Assembly (NCBI GenBank): GCA_017435865.1
Contig: JAFSEF010000054.1
Coordinates: 1-49,938 of the forward strand
Length of the DNA stretch: 49,938 nt
Source: Clostridia bacterium
GTDB lineage: Bacteria; Bacillota; Clostridia; Oscillospirales; Acutalibacteraceae
Reading direction: 5' to 3'
Shown here: one piece after another, positions 17,186 to 31,036 of the stretch
Layout of the letters: every line of letters begins with the position of its first letter
Numbering within the stretch: position 1 is the first letter of the stretch
Position numbers and translations under genes: made by a program
The notes under the pieces: model-generated
Database searches by the model: none
Seen by the model: only the letters and a program-made list of their open reading frames with translations
Told to the model about the DNA's origin: nothing

Positions 17186-19975
17186 ATGCGTGTTGCCCGT
17201 CAGAATGAAGCTGCCAAAGCTTTTGCAGAGTATTGGCAGGAAAGAGGATATGAAAAAGGAGAAAGTCAACCGTTCTGGCTTTCTTTGCTTCGTGATGTAT
17301 ACGGTGTGGAACAACCCGAAAAATATATCACATTTGAAGAACAGGTCAAAATTGATCATACCAGTTTCATTGACGGGATGATTCAGTCTACTCATGTGCT
17401 GATTGAGCAAAAAGGAAAAGGTAAAGATCTTCGTAAGCCAATCAAGCAGTCGGATGGCTCTCTGCTGACACCGTTTCAGCAGGCACAGCGTTATTCTGCC
17501 GTTTTGCCTTATTCGCAAAGACCGCGTTGGATTATCACCTGCAATTTTGAAGAATTTTTGATTTATGACATGGAAAAACCAAATGGTGAACCTGAACAGA
17601 TTTTATTGAAAGATCTTGAAAAAGAATATTACCGTCTTCAATTCATGGTCGATGCGGCAGATGAAAATATAAAACACGAAATGGAGGTTTCCATACAGGC
17701 GGGCAATCTTGTCGGTGTTTTGTATGATGAAATTCTTAAACAGTATATCGACCCGACCAATCCCCGTTCATTGCAAAGTCTGAATATGCTTTGTGTTCGG
17801 CTTGTTTTTTGTTTGTATGCCGAGGATGCCGGTATTTTCGGTCCTCGCAATCTGTTCCATGATTATATCAACTCCTTTGAAGCAAAAGGTCTGCGTCGTG
17901 CCTTGATTGACTTGTTCAAAATGCTCGATACCGACATAAAAGACCGCGACCCGTATGAGAACGGTCTGCTTGCACAATTTCCTTATGTCAACGGTGGTTT
18001 GTTTGCGGATGAAAGCATTGAGATTCCGCAGCTCAATGACCGTGTTCGTGATTTGCTTCTTCGCAAAGCAAGCGAGGATTTTGACTGGTCTTCCATCAGT
18101 CCTACCATTTTCGGTGCTGTTTTTGAAAGCACACTGAACCCCGAAACAAGGCGTTCCGGCGGTATGCACTACACGTCTATTGAAAACATACACAAAGTCA
18201 TTGACCCTCTGTTTTTGGATGACCTGCGTGAAGAGTTTTCCGAAATAAAGGCAATTGCCGTCCGGAAAACAAAGCTTGCCCGTTTGGAGCAGTTCCGCAA
18301 CAAATTGGCTTCCCTTACATTTCTTGACCCTGCCTGCGGGTCGGGCAATTTCCTCACGGAAACTTATATTTCACTGCGCCGTCTTGAAAATGAAGCAATT
18401 GAAGCCGAAACCGATGGACAGATTATGATGAATATGATGAATTGCATCCGTGTGTCTATCGGCCAGTTTTACGGTATTGAAATCAATGATTTTGCCGTAA
18501 CCGTTGCCAAAACCGCTCTGTGGATTGCCGAAAGTCAGATGATGAAAGAAACCGAAAGCATCATTCACATGAATCTTGACTTTTTGCCGCTGAAATCCTA
18601 TGCAAATATCGTTGAGGGCAATGCGCTGCGTATCGATTGGGAAACGGTAGTGCCGAAGAATCAATTGAACTACATCATGGGCAACCCACCGTTTGTGGGG
18701 GCTCGTATGATGGATCAAGGTAGCGAGCAAAAGAGGGATGTACAAACTGTTTTCGGGGATATTAAAGATGTTCAGGACTTGGATTATGTAACATGTTGGT
18801 ATAAAAAAGCGGCAATGTTAGTTCAGAATACCAATATAGAAGTATGCTTTGTTTCCACAAATTCAATCTGTCAGGGTGCACAGACCCCAATCTTATGGAA
18901 TGTGCTTTTAAATGAATATAACATCAAAATCAACTATGCCTATCAAACCTTTAAGTGGAATAGTGAGGCAAAGGATAAAGCAGCAGTATTTTGTGTGATT
19001 GTAGGATTCTCAACATTTCACAGAAAAATCAAGACACTATATTCGGATATTACCGGCGATGGGAGCACACGTGTAAAAAACGTGGACAACATTAATCCTT
19101 ATCTTTTGGATGCCCCGGATTGTTTAATTGTCGCATCAAAGGAGCCGCTTTGTAGTGTTCCTAAAATGAATTTTGGTAATCAACCGCGAGACGGTGGTTT
19201 TCTCGTTATTTCTCCAGATGAATATAATGAACTTCTGCAAAAAGAACCCGAACTAAAACAATGGTTGCGATTGTATATCGGGGCTGAAGAATTCATCAAA
19301 GGCAAGAAAAGATGGTGTCTGTGGTTAAAGAAGGCTTCTCCCAAAGATATTAAGAACAGTCATATTCTCTATGACAAAGTACAAGCAGTGAAGGATTTTC
19401 GCTTAAATTCAAAAGCTAAAACGACAAACGGATATGCCAAAGTGCCGCATTTGTTTGCCCAGATCACGCAGCCTGATGATGTGCCATATTTAATAATTCC
19501 TTCGGTTTCTTCTGAAAGAAGAAAATATGTGCCTATTGGATTTGTGGGCGCAGATATTATTTCATCTAATGCCGTACAAATAATTCCCGATGCAACTCTG
19601 TATCATTTCGGTGTTTTGACCTCCAATGTACATATGGCTTGGATGCGAGCGGTTTGTGGCAGATTGAAAAGCGATTATCGCTATTCCAAGGAAATCGTAT
19701 ATAACACATTCCCTTGGCCCGATCCTACCGATGCTCAAAAAGCCAAGATAGAGCAGACTGCACAGGCTATTCTTGACGCTCGCGCACTTTATCCCGATTG
19801 CTCTTTTGCAGACCTCTACGATGAGGTTGCTATGCCGCCCGAACTCCGTAAAGCACATCAAGCCAACGACCGCGCCGTAATGCAGGCATACGGTTTTGAT
19901 GTAAAGACTATGACGGAAAGCACCTGCGTGGCGGAACTTATGAGAATGTATAAGGAATTAGTTGAATCATGCTGA
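17186..19975 (+). CDS. MmeI-like type IIG restriction-modification enzyme (nuclease, methyltransferase and specificity in one chain)
   Basis: 929 residues. The N-terminal domain has a PD-(D/E)xK-like site (FIDGMIQSTHVLIEQKGKG: Asp, then E-Q-K ten residues on), followed by the helical linker of MmeI-type enzymes. The gamma-class adenine methyltransferase is clear: FLDPACGSGNF (about 379-389, motif I), FYGIEINDFAVTVAKTAL, and NPPF (about 500, motif IV). Residues about 510-840 are the likely target recognition domain, more AT-rich than the rest, as expected of an exchangeable specificity module. The C-terminal helical part (IEQTAQAILDARALYPDCSF) ends at 19975. It would methylate adenine on one strand of its site and cut at a distance. 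Start ATG 17186, AGGGGA upstream. Confidence 0.9.
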   Translation: MRVARQNEAAKAFAEYWQERGYEKGESQPFWLSLLRDVYGVEQPEKYITFEEQVKIDHTSFIDGMIQSTHVLIEQKGKGKDLRKPIKQSDGSLLTPFQQAQRYSAVLPYSQRPRWIITCNFEEFLIYDMEKPNGEPEQILLKDLEKEYYRLQFMVDAADENIKHEMEVSIQAGNLVGVLYDEILKQYIDPTNPRSLQSLNMLCVRLVFCLYAEDAGIFGPRNLFHDYINSFEAKGLRRALIDLFKMLDTDIKDRDPYENGLLAQFPYVNGGLFADESIEIPQLNDRVRDLLLRKASEDFDWSSISPTIFGAVFESTLNPETRRSGGMHYTSIENIHKVIDPLFLDDLREEFSEIKAIAVRKTKLARLEQFRNKLASLTFLDPACGSGNFLTETYISLRRLENEAIEAETDGQIMMNMMNCIRVSIGQFYGIEINDFAVTVAKTALWIAESQMMKETESIIHMNLDFLPLKSYANIVEGNALRIDWETVVPKNQLNYIMGNPPFVGARMMDQGSEQKRDVQTVFGDIKDVQDLDYVTCWYKKAAMLVQNTNIEVCFVSTNSICQGAQTPILWNVLLNEYNIKINYAYQTFKWNSEAKDKAAVFCVIVGFSTFHRKIKTLYSDITGDGSTRVKNVDNINPYLLDAPDCLIVASKEPLCSVPKMNFGNQPRDGGFLVISPDEYNELLQKEPELKQWLRLYIGAEEFIKGKKRWCLWLKKASPKDIKNSHILYDKVQAVKDFRLNSKAKTTNGYAKVPHLFAQITQPDDVPYLIIPSVSSERRKYVPIGFVGADIISSNAVQIIPDATLYHFGVLTSNVHMAWMRAVCGRLKSDYRYSKEIVYNTFPWPDPTDAQKAKIEQTAQAILDARALYPDCSFADLYDEVAMPPELRKAHQANDRAVMQAYGFDVKTMTESTCVAELMRMYKELVESC

Positions 19976-20453: not shown

Positions 20454-20676
20454 ATCGAGCAGACCGCGCAGGCAATTCTTGATGCTCGTGCGATTTACCC
20501 GGATTGTTCACTTGCCGATTTGTATGACGAATTGACTATGCACGTTGAGCTGCGCAAAGCACATCAGACAAACGACAAGGCCGTCATGCAGGCCTACGGA
20601 TTCAGCTTCAAAATGACCGAATCCGAATGCGTGGCAGAACTTGTGGCTATATAAGGAATTGATTGAAAAGGGCTGA
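20454..20676 (+). pseudogene. Remnant of a second type IIG 3' end
   Basis: This stretch encodes IEQTAQAILDARAIYPDCSL, LADLYDELTM, ELRKAHQTNDKAVMQAYGF and TESECVAELV, clearly homologous to the last 75 residues of the type IIG enzyme at 17186-19975. Nothing of the rest of the gene precedes it. Near the end, 2 nt are missing relative to the intact copy, giving an early TAA (20652-20654); the old ending (YKELIEKG then TGA) continues in another frame. The divergence is large enough that it is the tail of a different, lost type IIG gene rather than a recent duplication. Confidence 0.8.
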
Positions 20677-20683
20677 ATTGATA

Positions 20684-21658
20684 ATGAATTGGAAAAATGA
20701 TTTTATAAGCCTATATACAGCAGGTACGCCAGCCGATTATTGTAATGCTTTGGATTTGAAAAGAAATAATCTTCCAAAAAGGCTGTATCGATACAGACCA
20801 ATTACAGATGCATCTTTAAAATATCGTTTTAACGAAATAGTTAGAGGAGAATTGTGGTTATCTCATCCCAAGGAATTAAATGACCCGTTTGAATGTTGTT
20901 CGCATTTGAGAGTATCTGAACCGGGTTATTATTTTGATGATAAAAAGTTATTTGAAGAAATGGCAAAAGGAATATTTGAACCAAAAGATTTTATTGAAAT
21001 ATTTGAATCTGAAAAATGGTTTGATAGCCTTATAGCATACATATCAGAGAAATCGACCACAGCAGAACGAGTTGAAGCAGCAATAAAGAAAGCAATTATG
21101 AGTGAAATTGAAAGAGTTAATTATCTTTTTAATGCACTGTGCAGACATTTTGTAAGATTTGCAAGCTTTACAACTAATCCATTAAATCTTCCGATGTGGA
21201 ATCATTATACAAATGGTCATAAAGGCATATGCATGGAATATAATACTTTAGATATCCAAAATATATATCAAAAAAATATGTTGTTTCCTGTTTTCTATGT
21301 TGAGAAATTGCCTGACCTTACATCTGAACTTATTAAGAACAGGAAAACTGAGTTTTTGATCTTTGATTATATTGCGATGCACAAGTTAAAAGATTGGGCT
21401 TATGAAGAGGAATGGAGACTAATACATAACGCAGGAGCGTGGTATTCTTGTCTAGAAGATACCCCGGAAGATTTTTATGATAAAGGAAAAGCGATACAAT
21501 TCATAAAGCCTTCAAAAATAATACTTGGAACACAAATTAGCGATGACCACAAATCTGAAATTGTTCAAATGGCAAATAAGGCAAATGTTCCCGTTTTACA
21601 ATCAAAACAAACAGAATATGGATTAAGAATTGCAGATGAATTACCTGAAAAAGATTAG
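20684..21658 (+). CDS. DUF2971-family protein
   Basis: About 324 residues. Typical DUF2971 pattern: RLYRYRPITDASLKYRF, GELWLSHPKELNDPFECCS, FASFTTNPLNLPMWNHYTNG, HKGICMEYN, and KDWAYEEEWRLI. The biochemical role of the family is not established; members recur in defence-type gene neighbourhoods, which agrees with the type IIG gene and remnant just upstream. The start at ATG 20684 (AAGGG 11 nt upstream) is uncertain: TTG 20663, inside the remnant and after AAGGA, is equally possible. The coding sequence is more AT-rich than flanking catabolic genes, suggesting transfer. Confidence 0.82.
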   Translation: MNWKNDFISLYTAGTPADYCNALDLKRNNLPKRLYRYRPITDASLKYRFNEIVRGELWLSHPKELNDPFECCSHLRVSEPGYYFDDKKLFEEMAKGIFEPKDFIEIFESEKWFDSLIAYISEKSTTAERVEAAIKKAIMSEIERVNYLFNALCRHFVRFASFTTNPLNLPMWNHYTNGHKGICMEYNTLDIQNIYQKNMLFPVFYVEKLPDLTSELIKNRKTEFLIFDYIAMHKLKDWAYEEEWRLIHNAGAWYSCLEDTPEDFYDKGKAIQFIKPSKIILGTQISDDHKSEIVQMANKANVPVLQSKQTEYGLRIADELPEKD

Positions 21659-28050: not shown

Positions 28051-28850
28051 GTTTCAAAGTAATCAGCAAGGAAAATGTTTTCGAAGTATATCATAACGAT
28101 TATCTGTTCACAATCTGTGATTACAGTGCGACCTATAAAAGACCCTTCATGGGCCCCGTGAATGCACCCGACGGAGTGTCATTCACCCGCTTTACACCCT
28201 TCCATGAGGAGCATCCGCATCAGCGATCGCTGTTCATCGGTGTGGGTGAGGTCAACGGCGTGGACTTCTGGAATGAATTTGAAGACGACAAAGGTGTTGT
28301 TGTTTTTGACTGCATTGACGAAATCGCCGACGGTGAAACGGCGGTTGTTTCTGTCAACAATGTATGGCAAAAGCCGGACGGCACACCCGTTATCAACGAA
28401 AAACGCAGACTTACCTTCTCCGAAGCCGAAACAGGAGTTTGCGTGGATGTGCAGGTCGTGTTCACCGCCGCTTACGGCGACATCGAATTCGGCCCCACCA
28501 AAGAAGCAGGCCCTCTCGGTATTCGTGTCAATGACTTCATGCGTGCCGACGGGGAAGGCACCTTTACCAATTCCAACGGCGGTGTCAAGGAGGAGGAATG
28601 CTGGGGCAAGGAAGCACTGTGGTGCAATTATTTCGCAAAACTGAACGGCAAAACCTACGGTATTGCCGCCTTTGACCGCAATACGAATGAACGCTTTCCT
28701 ACCACATGGCACATCCGTAACTACGGTTTGATGGCAGCCAATAACCTGTTCTTCAAGGGCGGTCTTTCCATCCCCGCCGACGAAAGCCTGCAGTATGACT
28801 TCACCGTTGTGTTCTGGACAGACAGCATTGATGAATGTGATTATATTTAA
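28047..28850 (+). CDS. DUF6807 (PmoA-like) family protein
   Basis: 267 residues. The pattern KRPFMGPVNAPDGVSFTRF, followed by HPHQRSLFIGVGEVNGVDFW and GIAAFDRNTNERFPTTWHIRNYG, matches the family annotated as DUF6807 or PmoA (a misleading name, not methane oxygenase). Members occur in sugar-degradation clusters beside isomerases and Gfo/Idh/MocA enzymes, and a hydrolase/isomerase-like role is suspected only from context. Coupled to the isomerase by a 4-nt overlap. Confidence 0.8.
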   Translation: MSFKVISKENVFEVYHNDYLFTICDYSATYKRPFMGPVNAPDGVSFTRFTPFHEEHPHQRSLFIGVGEVNGVDFWNEFEDDKGVVVFDCIDEIADGETAVVSVNNVWQKPDGTPVINEKRRLTFSEAETGVCVDVQVVFTAAYGDIEFGPTKEAGPLGIRVNDFMRADGEGTFTNSNGGVKEEECWGKEALWCNYFAKLNGKTYGIAAFDRNTNERFPTTWHIRNYGLMAANNLFFKGGLSIPADESLQYDFTVVFWTDSIDECDYI

Positions 28851-28855
28851 TTTGG

Positions 28856-28891
28856 AAAACCTTTGCTGTGTATTCTCGGCAAAGGTTTTTT
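28856..28891 (+). terminator. Rho-independent terminator after DUF6807
   Basis: Stem AAAACCTTTGC (28856-28866) / GCAAAGGTTTT (28879-28889) followed by T run. Confidence 0.85.
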
Positions 28892-29008
28892 GCATAAAAA
28901 TTACATTTTTTTTTTGAAAAATATTTTATAAGTACGATTTATGGTACTATGCGTGTGTTATAATAACTTAAAATAACTCTCTTTTTATTTAGGAAAGGAT
29001 GGATTTTT

Positions 29009-31003
29009 GTGAAAAACAAAATGGATGAAAATAATATTTCATTGTTTGATTACGTTGATACTCAGGAAAACCATTCGGGTAAACTTGATGTTGTTGAGTT
29101 GGATTATGTAACAACAAAAGCAGTAACATGGCAAGAACTGTTTAGGGGCTATAATAAGATACGAGCAATTACATACTCCTCGAATATAAATTTTATATAC
29201 AAACTCCTTGAAATGTTTGATGAGGCAGAAATTATATTTGGCAATGAAATGGTTATGTCCGGATCTATACAAGAGATTATGGCATATCAAAATCAATTAT
29301 TGTTGAGAATGCGAGAAAATGTTGGCAATTCAAGACAGGAGTTGTTGGAGCGAATAGACAACGGTACGGTTAGTTTTTTTGTCGCTCATAAACAAATGTC
29401 GCATGAGAAAATTTATCTTTTGGAAGCAACGGATGGACGTAAAAGGGTTATTATGGGTTCTGCAAATATGTCCTATAATGCATTTGGTGGATTTCAGCGA
29501 GAGAATATTTGCTATATCGATAATGAAAATGCATATAATTGGTATTTATCATGTTTTGATGATTTAAAAGAAAATAGTACAAATACAATTAGCAAAAAGG
29601 CTTTGATGATTGCTGATACGAGTGAAAATATTGATGCTTTGCCAATTTCAGAATATGTTTATGCAAAAAAGGCATTTATTGTTGAAACAGAAAAAGAGTT
29701 GTTAAGTGAAGTTCAATTTATTTTGGATGTACACAATCTTGCAAAAGAATTAAAGCCGATTATACCGAAAGCTGACAAGAAAAACGGAAAAACTTATTTG
29801 ATGCCAGATGCAATAACAAAAATCAGGCGTCAAAGAATTGAAGAAAATATTAGGGATAAAGAATTGCGTAGTGAATATCCTCATTTGATTGTTGATGCAG
29901 AAAAAATGTGTGTGCTATTAAATGGGGAAAAAGTGAATTTGGAACCAAAAAAAGAGGAAGTTGCCGCTGATGTTGATTTGTTTCTGCGGTATATGGATGG
30001 ATATAGTACGTTTCATGGTAACTTTGCGGAAATGCAGTATAGATATTTTGAATTTGCAAACTGGTTTTTTTGCTCACCGTTTATTGCTGTTATGCGTGAT
30101 ATGGCATCGCGTTATGAGCAAAATAAATTACCGTATCCGGTTTTTGGCTTGGTGTATGGACAAAGCAAAGCAGGAAAAACAAGTTTTCTTGAAACTTTGT
30201 TGAAAATGATGATAGGACAAAAACCAAAATTGGCAGCACCTGATTTTACTCGTTCAAGCATTGAAAACTTGAAAAGAACGGTAAAAGGCGCACCAATTAT
30301 AGTTGATGACTTGACGCAAACAAGATTTAATCAGCATGCAATAGAAACAATTAAAAATGATGACTTCGGCATTAGTGAGCATATTATACATTATCCGGCA
30401 GTTGTTATCAGTGCTAATGAAGATGTTAAAGCTGTTGCCCCTGAAGTTATTCGCCGAACAGTCATCTGTCGTGTTGAAGCCGGGTTGACAAATACAGAAG
30501 TTATGAAAAGCAATGTTGTGCGCTCAATACAACAAAAAATCGGTACGGCATTTTATCGTGAATATTTATCTCGGATGTTGCAAAGATTACCGGAGCTTAT
30601 TGATATTATGAAGGATGAAGCTGCAATAAGCGCACCTGATATATTAGAAGTATCTTCACAAACAATTGTTGAAATCTTCAAAGAGCATCATGTGCAATTG
30701 CCGCAATATGTCAGACATCTTTCCCTTGATGATTATTTCAGTGAGCATGTTACTGGAAAATTTGCAAAAGAAAATATCCGAAATGCATGGAAAACAAGTC
30801 CAAAATCTTTTGTGATTCAAAATAAAACAAATGAATTAAGATACAATGCCGGACAGTCATATGAAGCAGATCGACTGATGAAAGAATTGCCTGAAACATT
30901 GGAGGCACATAAGGTTAGAGAATGGATTGTGATGAATTTGTCGGAAGCAAGAGATTTTTTTGGTATTGACTTTAAAAAATCATTGTTTAAAATAAAGGTG
31001 TAA
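29009..31003 (+). CDS. Fused phospholipase D-like nuclease and SF3/AAA-like ATPase
   Basis: 664 residues in one chain. Residues about 35-190 form a PLD-superfamily domain with one HxK motif (H132-E-K134-I-Y-L-L-E) and G-S-A-N-M-S at about 150; the usual Asp after HxK is Glu, and one HxK per chain implies a dimeric site as in Nuc and BfiI. Residues about 240-320 are a charged helical linker. Residues about 360-520 are a P-loop ATPase: GQSKAGKTS (384-392, Walker A), APIIVDDL (Walker B, 428-435), VVISAN (sensor-like) and VIRRTVICRVEAG (arginine-rich segment), most like superfamily 3 helicase/AAA domains. The last 120 residues are helical. GTG start 29009 after AAAGGA. The gene is AT-rich and stands alone. 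A DNA-targeting defence role is inferred, not shown. Confidence 0.78.
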   Translation: MKNKMDENNISLFDYVDTQENHSGKLDVVELDYVTTKAVTWQELFRGYNKIRAITYSSNINFIYKLLEMFDEAEIIFGNEMVMSGSIQEIMAYQNQLLLRMRENVGNSRQELLERIDNGTVSFFVAHKQMSHEKIYLLEATDGRKRVIMGSANMSYNAFGGFQRENICYIDNENAYNWYLSCFDDLKENSTNTISKKALMIADTSENIDALPISEYVYAKKAFIVETEKELLSEVQFILDVHNLAKELKPIIPKADKKNGKTYLMPDAITKIRRQRIEENIRDKELRSEYPHLIVDAEKMCVLLNGEKVNLEPKKEEVAADVDLFLRYMDGYSTFHGNFAEMQYRYFEFANWFFCSPFIAVMRDMASRYEQNKLPYPVFGLVYGQSKAGKTSFLETLLKMMIGQKPKLAAPDFTRSSIENLKRTVKGAPIIVDDLTQTRFNQHAIETIKNDDFGISEHIIHYPAVVISANEDVKAVAPEVIRRTVICRVEAGLTNTEVMKSNVVRSIQQKIGTAFYREYLSRMLQRLPELIDIMKDEAAISAPDILEVSSQTIVEIFKEHHVQLPQYVRHLSLDDYFSEHVTGKFAKENIRNAWKTSPKSFVIQNKTNELRYNAGQSYEADRLMKELPETLEAHKVREWIVMNLSEARDFFGIDFKKSLFKIKV

Positions 31004-31010
31004 CAAAAAA

Positions 31011-31036
31011 GAAGATCAACAGTTTTGTTGATCTTC
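31011..31036 (-). terminator. Terminator of the DAP dehydrogenase gene
   Basis: Stem GAAGATCAAC / GTTGATCTTC, 10 bp, followed on the minus strand by a T run (plus-strand A run 31005-31010). It lies between converging genes and may slow both. Confidence 0.8.

Follow-up and report, generated by a model that had tools for sequence, protein, structure and literature searches.

The gene and its protein

The window, by which we mean the whole 49,938-nucleotide stretch of Clostridia bacterium DNA analysed here, comes from a gut bacterium and carries an open reading frame at 29009..31003 of the forward strand. The frame starts with GTG and encodes 664 residues; its coordinates are exact, and they agree with the single chain read from the letters in the initial annotation. 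On the evidence of the reading frame, Pfam, sequence motifs and hhalign, we describe it as a gene for a putative phospholipase D-like (PLD) nuclease fused to a P-loop ATPase, resembling the haloarchaeal protein AgaP and lacking an Argonaute partner.

The core of the PLD domain, residues 108–192 (29330..29584), scores above the curated Pfam cut-offs for both PF09565 (RE_NgoFVII, 30.5 bits against 23.8) and PF13091 (PLDc_2, 28.8 bits against 27), as expected from the PLD-like domain proposed at the outset, and both families match all 38 members of alignment A1 (the window protein and 37 close relatives) at E ≤ 0.01. The HxK catalytic motif is H132-K134 (29402..29410), and the second half of the active site is GSAN, residues 150–153 (29456..29467), with 15 residues separating K134 and G150. 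The P-loop ATPase domain spans approximately residues 320–500 (29966..30508) and presents, in order, Walker A (GQSKAGKT, 384–391; 30158..30181), Walker B (IIVDD, 430–434; 30296..30310), a sensor- or motif C-like asparagine in VISAN (466–470; 30404..30418) and R482-R483 (30452..30457), a candidate arginine finger. All the motifs named in the initial annotation, namely H132/K134, GSANMS (150–155), GQSKAGKTS (384–392), VDD (432–434), VISAN (466–470) and RRT (482–484), lie where it had placed them. The remaining C-terminal region (501–664; 30509..31000) matches no family and is common to AgaP, with which hhalign aligns residues 39–664.

Conservation was assessed in alignment A7, comprising 21 bacterial proteins with identity to the window protein down to 19%. 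Invariant residues include K134, S151, N153, G389, K390, D433, N470 and R483, and H132 is kept in at least 90% of the proteins; one distant member (L073) is without the PLD histidine. That the PLD and ATPase sites have been preserved together over such divergence implies that both sites act.

The ATPase half is harder to classify. No curated Pfam or NCBIfam family matches it over its cut-off (AAA_24 reaches 14 bits, under a cut-off of 27), and sequence searches of the PDB with the close family and with the AgaPs gave no match. Diverse alignments against the PDB gave a best ATPase match to 5dgk (‘Active helicase’) at a weak E of 0.0064, further weak AAA+/P-loop matches and a few unrelated chains; their PLD matches were mitochondrial cardiolipin hydrolase and, with one alignment only, NucT. 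AAA+/MCM-like helicases and their kin (5dgk, Msp1, Pch2) match the ATPase core only weakly by profile (E 0.006 to 0.6), which we regard as resemblance and not membership. Phage P4 alpha, an SF3 protein used as a yardstick, gave no real match. The initial assignment to an SF3/AAA-like ATPase therefore stands as to its motifs, invariant over the 21 diverged proteins, and is unconfirmed as to SF3 proper; we use ‘AAA+/SF3-like’ as a provisional class. A single methyltransferase match, obtained with the window protein alone against the PDB, was discarded as chance level (E 0.09).

At the N-terminus, the peptide NISLF (residues 9–13; 29033..29047) is a candidate clamp-binding-like motif, the sliding-clamp-binding consensus being QLxLF or QxxLF (PMC4549789, PMC12309361). 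Residues 10–13 form a conserved island within an otherwise variable tail, with entropies in A1 of 1.25, 1.03, 1.21 and 0.18 bits, versus 2.4–3.7 bits at positions 15–25; in alignment A5, positions 12 and 13 have entropies of 0.61 and 0.50. A relaxed motif occurs in 29 of 36 near members, which are not independent of each other, compared with a mean of 2.9 and at most 9 for shuffled tails and 20 of 492 control open reading frames (ORFs). Among the distant set it is no commoner than in shuffles (3 of 14; shuffles mean 1.2, up to 5). The strict motif is present in 4/36 near members, 2/14 distant members and 1/492 control ORFs, and Q..LF within 35 residues in 3/37, 4/13 (distant bacterial) and 1/492, respectively. 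A looser core, [SNDTEP][LMF]F, is found in 36/37 near and 10/13 distant members and 47/492 control ORFs, and also in both AgaPs, there in a segment that aligns elsewhere. In most of the close clade (21/37), position 1 is N where the consensus has Q. These counts are without L039, and the relaxed and strict counts also without L036, both cut by contig ends; starts in the distant set for the Q..LF count were chosen during alignment, those of L080 and L127 being doubtful. Of three full-length relatives fetched later, L117 (genome G813) among them, the two with a readable N-terminus carry QISLF (L127) and QINLF (L128). The peptide is thus a candidate clamp-binding motif, and we hold the idea that it addresses the bacterial protein to the clamp only tentatively, with the odds against it.

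Insertion site, distribution and neighbouring genes

The nearest neighbours of the gene are metabolic, encoding a DUF6807 protein and DAP dehydrogenase. In another genome of the same genus (G540) these two genes are adjacent, their proteins being 81% and 86% identical to those of the window, and only 46 bp lie between the aligned flanks; the unaligned stretch of the window, 28829–31022, contains this gene alone. The difference between these two genomes fits a gain of the gene in the window, a reading with which its AT-rich composition and patchy spread agree, and loss in G540 is possible instead. With a GC content of 34.1% against 43.9% in the surrounding 18 kb, the gene is as AT-rich as first described. 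A low GC content does not characterise the family, since gene GC at other loci tends to track the host (for example 67.9% against 71.7% in adjoining DNA at L028).

The initial annotation also held that the gene stands alone, which is true of its immediate surroundings and needs qualifying for the window as a whole: a type IIG restriction enzyme-methyltransferase (17186–19975; PADLOC PDLC03598, 1198 bits) and, after it, a candidate defence gene (PDC-S31/DUF2971; 20663–21658) lie 7–12 kb upstream. No cognate methyltransferase gene adjoins the gene in the window. By eye, an operator-like palindrome, AGTAC-N8-GTACT (28931–28948), sits just upstream of a TATAAT (28959–28964); no regulator gene lies beside this palindrome in the window. 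The TATAAT is not among the predictions of a promoter scan, and no terminator was found.

Relatives are sparse at each taxonomic level searched (E ≤ 0.001). Five of 197 genomes of the order match, four at full length (our own included) and one as a fragment. In the phylum 11 of 348 genomes match, one with the PLD part only (G508) and one with the protein split into two ORFs (G520), and in the class 21 of 391, of which five are full length and sixteen cover merely a PLD or AAA-type stretch. Two of these single-domain matches (G625, G928) were set aside as AAA-type proteins of other kinds, which we take from reading them to be MoxR-like and RarA-like. One of the five full-length copies in the class (G813:C20:8729-10753) contains two in-frame TAG codons, reflecting decay or recoded TAG.

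Across genome contigs we found at least 39 loci, a lower bound given the pattern-based scan and with many in metagenome bins; most are full length and share 55–70% identity with the window protein, far more than chance. Their labels are Bacillota, Kiritimatiellota, Lentisphaerota and Fibrobacterota. In the tree, Kiritimatiellota/Lentisphaerota and Chitinispirillia copies fall inside starred groups that also contain Bacillota, although such mixed groups do not by themselves prove transfer. Plasmid records match in 14 of 72,556 cases (acetic acid bacteria, Arcobacter, Athalassotoga, Thermus and haloarchaea), phage records in none of 50,697, and two pattern-based scans of IMG/VR viral contigs gave no confirmed relative. 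On a Thermus oshimai plasmid (L052, 5989–9047), an annotated transposase gene lies between the PLD and ATPase parts, and two other copies occur as two ORFs (L044, 8010–10012; L076, 7427–9221), through decay or sequence errors.

The defence link proposed in the initial annotation was supported by a neighbourhood survey of homologues. At E ≤ 1e-15, 156 PADLOC families have a match somewhere among 114 neighbours of the 39 loci, against four for 114 control genes, which came from six carrier genomes and from ten stretches picked arbitrarily in them, and two of those four (mad3, mad8) also match an ordinary ABC-transporter-like protein. Related models match one protein, so that family counts overstate protein numbers, but the contrast is large despite this inflation. 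Type IV mREase is the commonest family among these neighbours (8/114), and the top 25 include type I and type IIG restriction, GajA, PDC-S01, PDC-S11 and PDC-S41. Among a further 47 neighbours of 14 additional loci, 80 families have a match, including the pAgo, MTase_III and Gabija GajB models. The 114 and 47 genes were retained from 192 nearest genes after leaving out those below about 150 residues, apparent shadow ORFs, every gene of L072 and a small number besides. The list is without L045, L027 and L038 (duplicates or near-duplicates), retains both near-identical strains L015 and L033, and has DAP dehydrogenase in place of one shadow ORF of the window. As gene calls were mechanical ORFs, the N-termini of neighbours, controls and some family members are uncertain. 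PADLOC does not recognise the PLD-ATPase protein itself (best E 0.004).

A PLD-helicase type IV enzyme adjoins the gene at L033, and proteins of the same sequence cluster lie near it at L015, L017, L025 and L047; a type I restriction enzyme is near L019, and a DNA-methyltransferase-like gene, named from its first residues, near L128. Pfam also places metabolic proteins among neighbours at other loci. The Athalassotoga plasmid copy has a DNA methyltransferase and helicases close by, the Arcobacter plasmid copy adjoins ParA/ParB genes, and the Acetobacter and Komagataeibacter plasmid copies lie among toxin-antitoxin genes. No partner is constant, the commonest neighbour cluster occurring at 5 of 43 clustered loci.

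Four loci (L009, L010, L032 and L036) have the same family of AraC-type regulator directly upstream and co-directional, L036 with a WYL regulator as well; transcriptional control of a toxin-like enzyme is possible. At two others (L019, 10085–11497; L030, 5223–6458), an ADP-ribosylglycohydrolase-Macro protein is encoded directly downstream, resembling a DarG-like context of ADP-ribosylation reversal.

Kinship with the haloarchaeal protein AgaP

In a tblastn search with the window protein, the ATPase part matched two plasmids of haloarchaea (E 8e-6), both with a Piwi gene nearby. These matches are AgaP, a PLD protein that serves as effector in the APAP system of haloarchaea, in which it accompanies a long-A prokaryotic Argonaute (PMC11442185). 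As described there, the PLD residues of AgaP are required both for plasmid clearance and for its toxicity when present alone, and Argonaute suppresses this toxicity, whereas immunity to a single-stranded DNA virus depends mainly on Argonaute's own site and is enhanced by AgaP.

Identity between the window protein and AgaP is only about 19–20%, and the relationship is carried by profiles. Aligning the 21 bacterial rows of A7 with seven AgaP rows (A6) gave E 7.7e-41 over window residues 39–664, and comparing the close family (A1) with AgaP of N. pellirubrum gave E 2.3e-12 over residues 322–612, the ATPase and C-terminal parts; both are single-comparison values. We read N. pellirubrum AgaP from its plasmid as an open frame without a stop, of which the record annotates pieces only. 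The residues mutated in PMC11442185 (H105, K107, G157, S158 and N160) are located as expected in this protein, and none of them varies among the seven AgaPs; H105/K107 are the counterparts of the window's HxK motif, and G157/S158/N160 those of its GSAN. The corresponding P-loop is GESNGGKGT, followed by VVVDD.

The expectation that no named system has exactly this architecture accordingly holds only in part: AgaP shares it at full length, and the combination of PLD and ATPase has that precedent, although the main text of PMC11442185 describes the PLD part alone, the words ATPase, Walker and P-loop being absent from it, so that the ATPase half of AgaP is pointed out here. By title and abstract start, we found no other open-access paper describing the architecture, and none that reports the ATPase half of AgaP, the clamp-like tail or a branch of the family in bacteria without Argonaute.

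The system in the window is not an APAP system, because Piwi (PF02171) is absent from the carrier genomes, with 0/11 and 0/15 in two sets that probably share one genome and that include several genomes incomplete or of unstated completeness, our own (G000) being 85% complete. An apparent pAgo at L020, flagged by a PADLOC model, was rejected: it matches a RecG-related PDB entry and neither of two haloarchaeal Argonautes, and its genome is without Piwi. The bacterial genes suggest a widespread, simpler, Argonaute-free form of AgaP-type defence.

Among five further archaeal records, an annotated Piwi adjoins AgaP in three. For the AgaP relative on a Halapricum desulfuricans plasmid (L132, 4890–7160), no Argonaute is annotated within 5 kb, and archaea too may therefore have stand-alone versions. 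In one Natrarchaeobaculum record, helicases and a ribonuclease-H-like protein lie by the AgaP relative, and the latter could be an Argonaute.

Interpretation and comparison with known systems

Homology to AgaP over the full length, the residues kept invariant at the PLD and ATPase sites, the defence-rich neighbours, the empty site in G540 and the spread over phyla together point to a horizontally moving, single-gene AgaP-type defence nuclease that would work without Argonaute; we put the probability of this reading at roughly 0.6. The PLD domain would cut DNA, two chains probably pairing to form a single active site, and the C-terminal AAA+/SF3-like ATPase would probably assemble a ring or filament. 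This assembly would hold the nuclease in check and set it free on DNA whose replication or structure is abnormal, with the loss of plasmids and phage genomes as the outcome. Through its N-terminal peptide the bacterial protein may bind the beta sliding clamp and in this way reach replicating DNA, an access that Argonaute may provide in haloarchaea. Given that Argonaute suppresses the toxicity which AgaP shows on its own, the stand-alone version is presumably self-restrained, the ATPase half and the tail being candidates for that role. DNA cutting, ATP control, oligomerisation and clamp docking by the window protein are all inferred. We also entertain, at well short of even odds, a broader history in which AgaP is a branch of an older, self-sufficient, ATP-controlled PLD family: bacterial members would use a clamp peptide as their label and destroy over-replicating foreign DNA at forks, and haloarchaea would have swapped this label for a guide-loaded Argonaute.

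Restriction offers another framework, in which a PLD endonuclease of the NgoFVII kind has acquired an NTPase and serves as an accessory of the neighbouring mREase_IV, type I and type IIG systems. The Pfam name RE_NgoFVII, the type IV cluster adjoining L033 and recurring at four other loci, the type I enzyme near L019 and the methyltransferases near L128 and on the Athalassotoga plasmid all speak for it, but no partner is constant; nor does the window gene adjoin a methyltransferase, and no known DNA-recognition domain was found by Pfam in the window protein or A1. We consider this unlikely. A role in plasmid or mobile-element maintenance or competition, such as incompatibility or exclusion of rival plasmids, in place of anti-phage activity would suit the ParA/ParB and toxin-antitoxin settings of the Arcobacter and acetic acid bacterial copies and the action of APAP on plasmids (PMC11442185), yet the copy in the window is flanked by metabolic genes and other copies have restriction genes among their neighbours, which makes such a role quite improbable.

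The PLD superfamily includes tyrosyl-DNA phosphodiesterases, and a Tdp1-like housekeeping repair enzyme, removing protein-DNA adducts and tied to the replication clamp, would account for the clamp-like motif and for a weak PF06087 match in 4 of the 38 A1 proteins. A housekeeping enzyme is difficult to reconcile with so patchy a spread (within the order, 4 of 197 genomes have a full-length copy), with presence or absence of the single gene between genomes of one genus, and with the defence context, and we give this reading very little credence. Least credible is a mobile element made of this one gene, which would then encode its transposase or integrase, although the gene does form a single-gene insertion relative to G540 and many transposases have clamp-binding motifs (PMC4549789): its own genome and the three other full-length carriers of the order have a single copy each, and by eye 33 upstream and 18 downstream flanks have no common end sequences, save between the near-identical L015 and L033.

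With this kinship, an orphan bacterial gene family is tied to an experimentally studied relative, and the questions raised by APAP, namely how plasmid is told from chromosome and why Argonaute silences AgaP, become one-gene questions in laboratory bacteria. Should the clamp peptide prove real, the replisome would be the address of this defence nuclease; we found no open-access paper linking anti-phage defence to a clamp-binding motif.

Among known systems, NgoFVII-type PLD endonucleases and PLD-helicase type IV enzymes belong to the same PLD family by Pfam, but the mREase_IV at L033:4495-7659 carries a ResIII-type helicase and DUF3427 where the window protein has its AAA+/SF3-like ATPase. BfiI and Nuc are single-HKD nucleases; the window protein likewise has one HKD half-site per chain, for which a dimer is expected, and to our knowledge neither enzyme has a motor domain. 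AgaP is the closest counterpart, sharing an N-terminal PLD domain with HxK and GSxN and a C-terminal P-loop domain with Walker A and B and the conserved asparagine and arginine. It differs in the spacing of HxK and GSxN, about 50 residues versus 15 in the window protein, in the N-terminal clamp-like peptide found in many bacterial members, and in its operon with a catalytically active long-A Argonaute, the bacterial carriers examined having no Argonaute.
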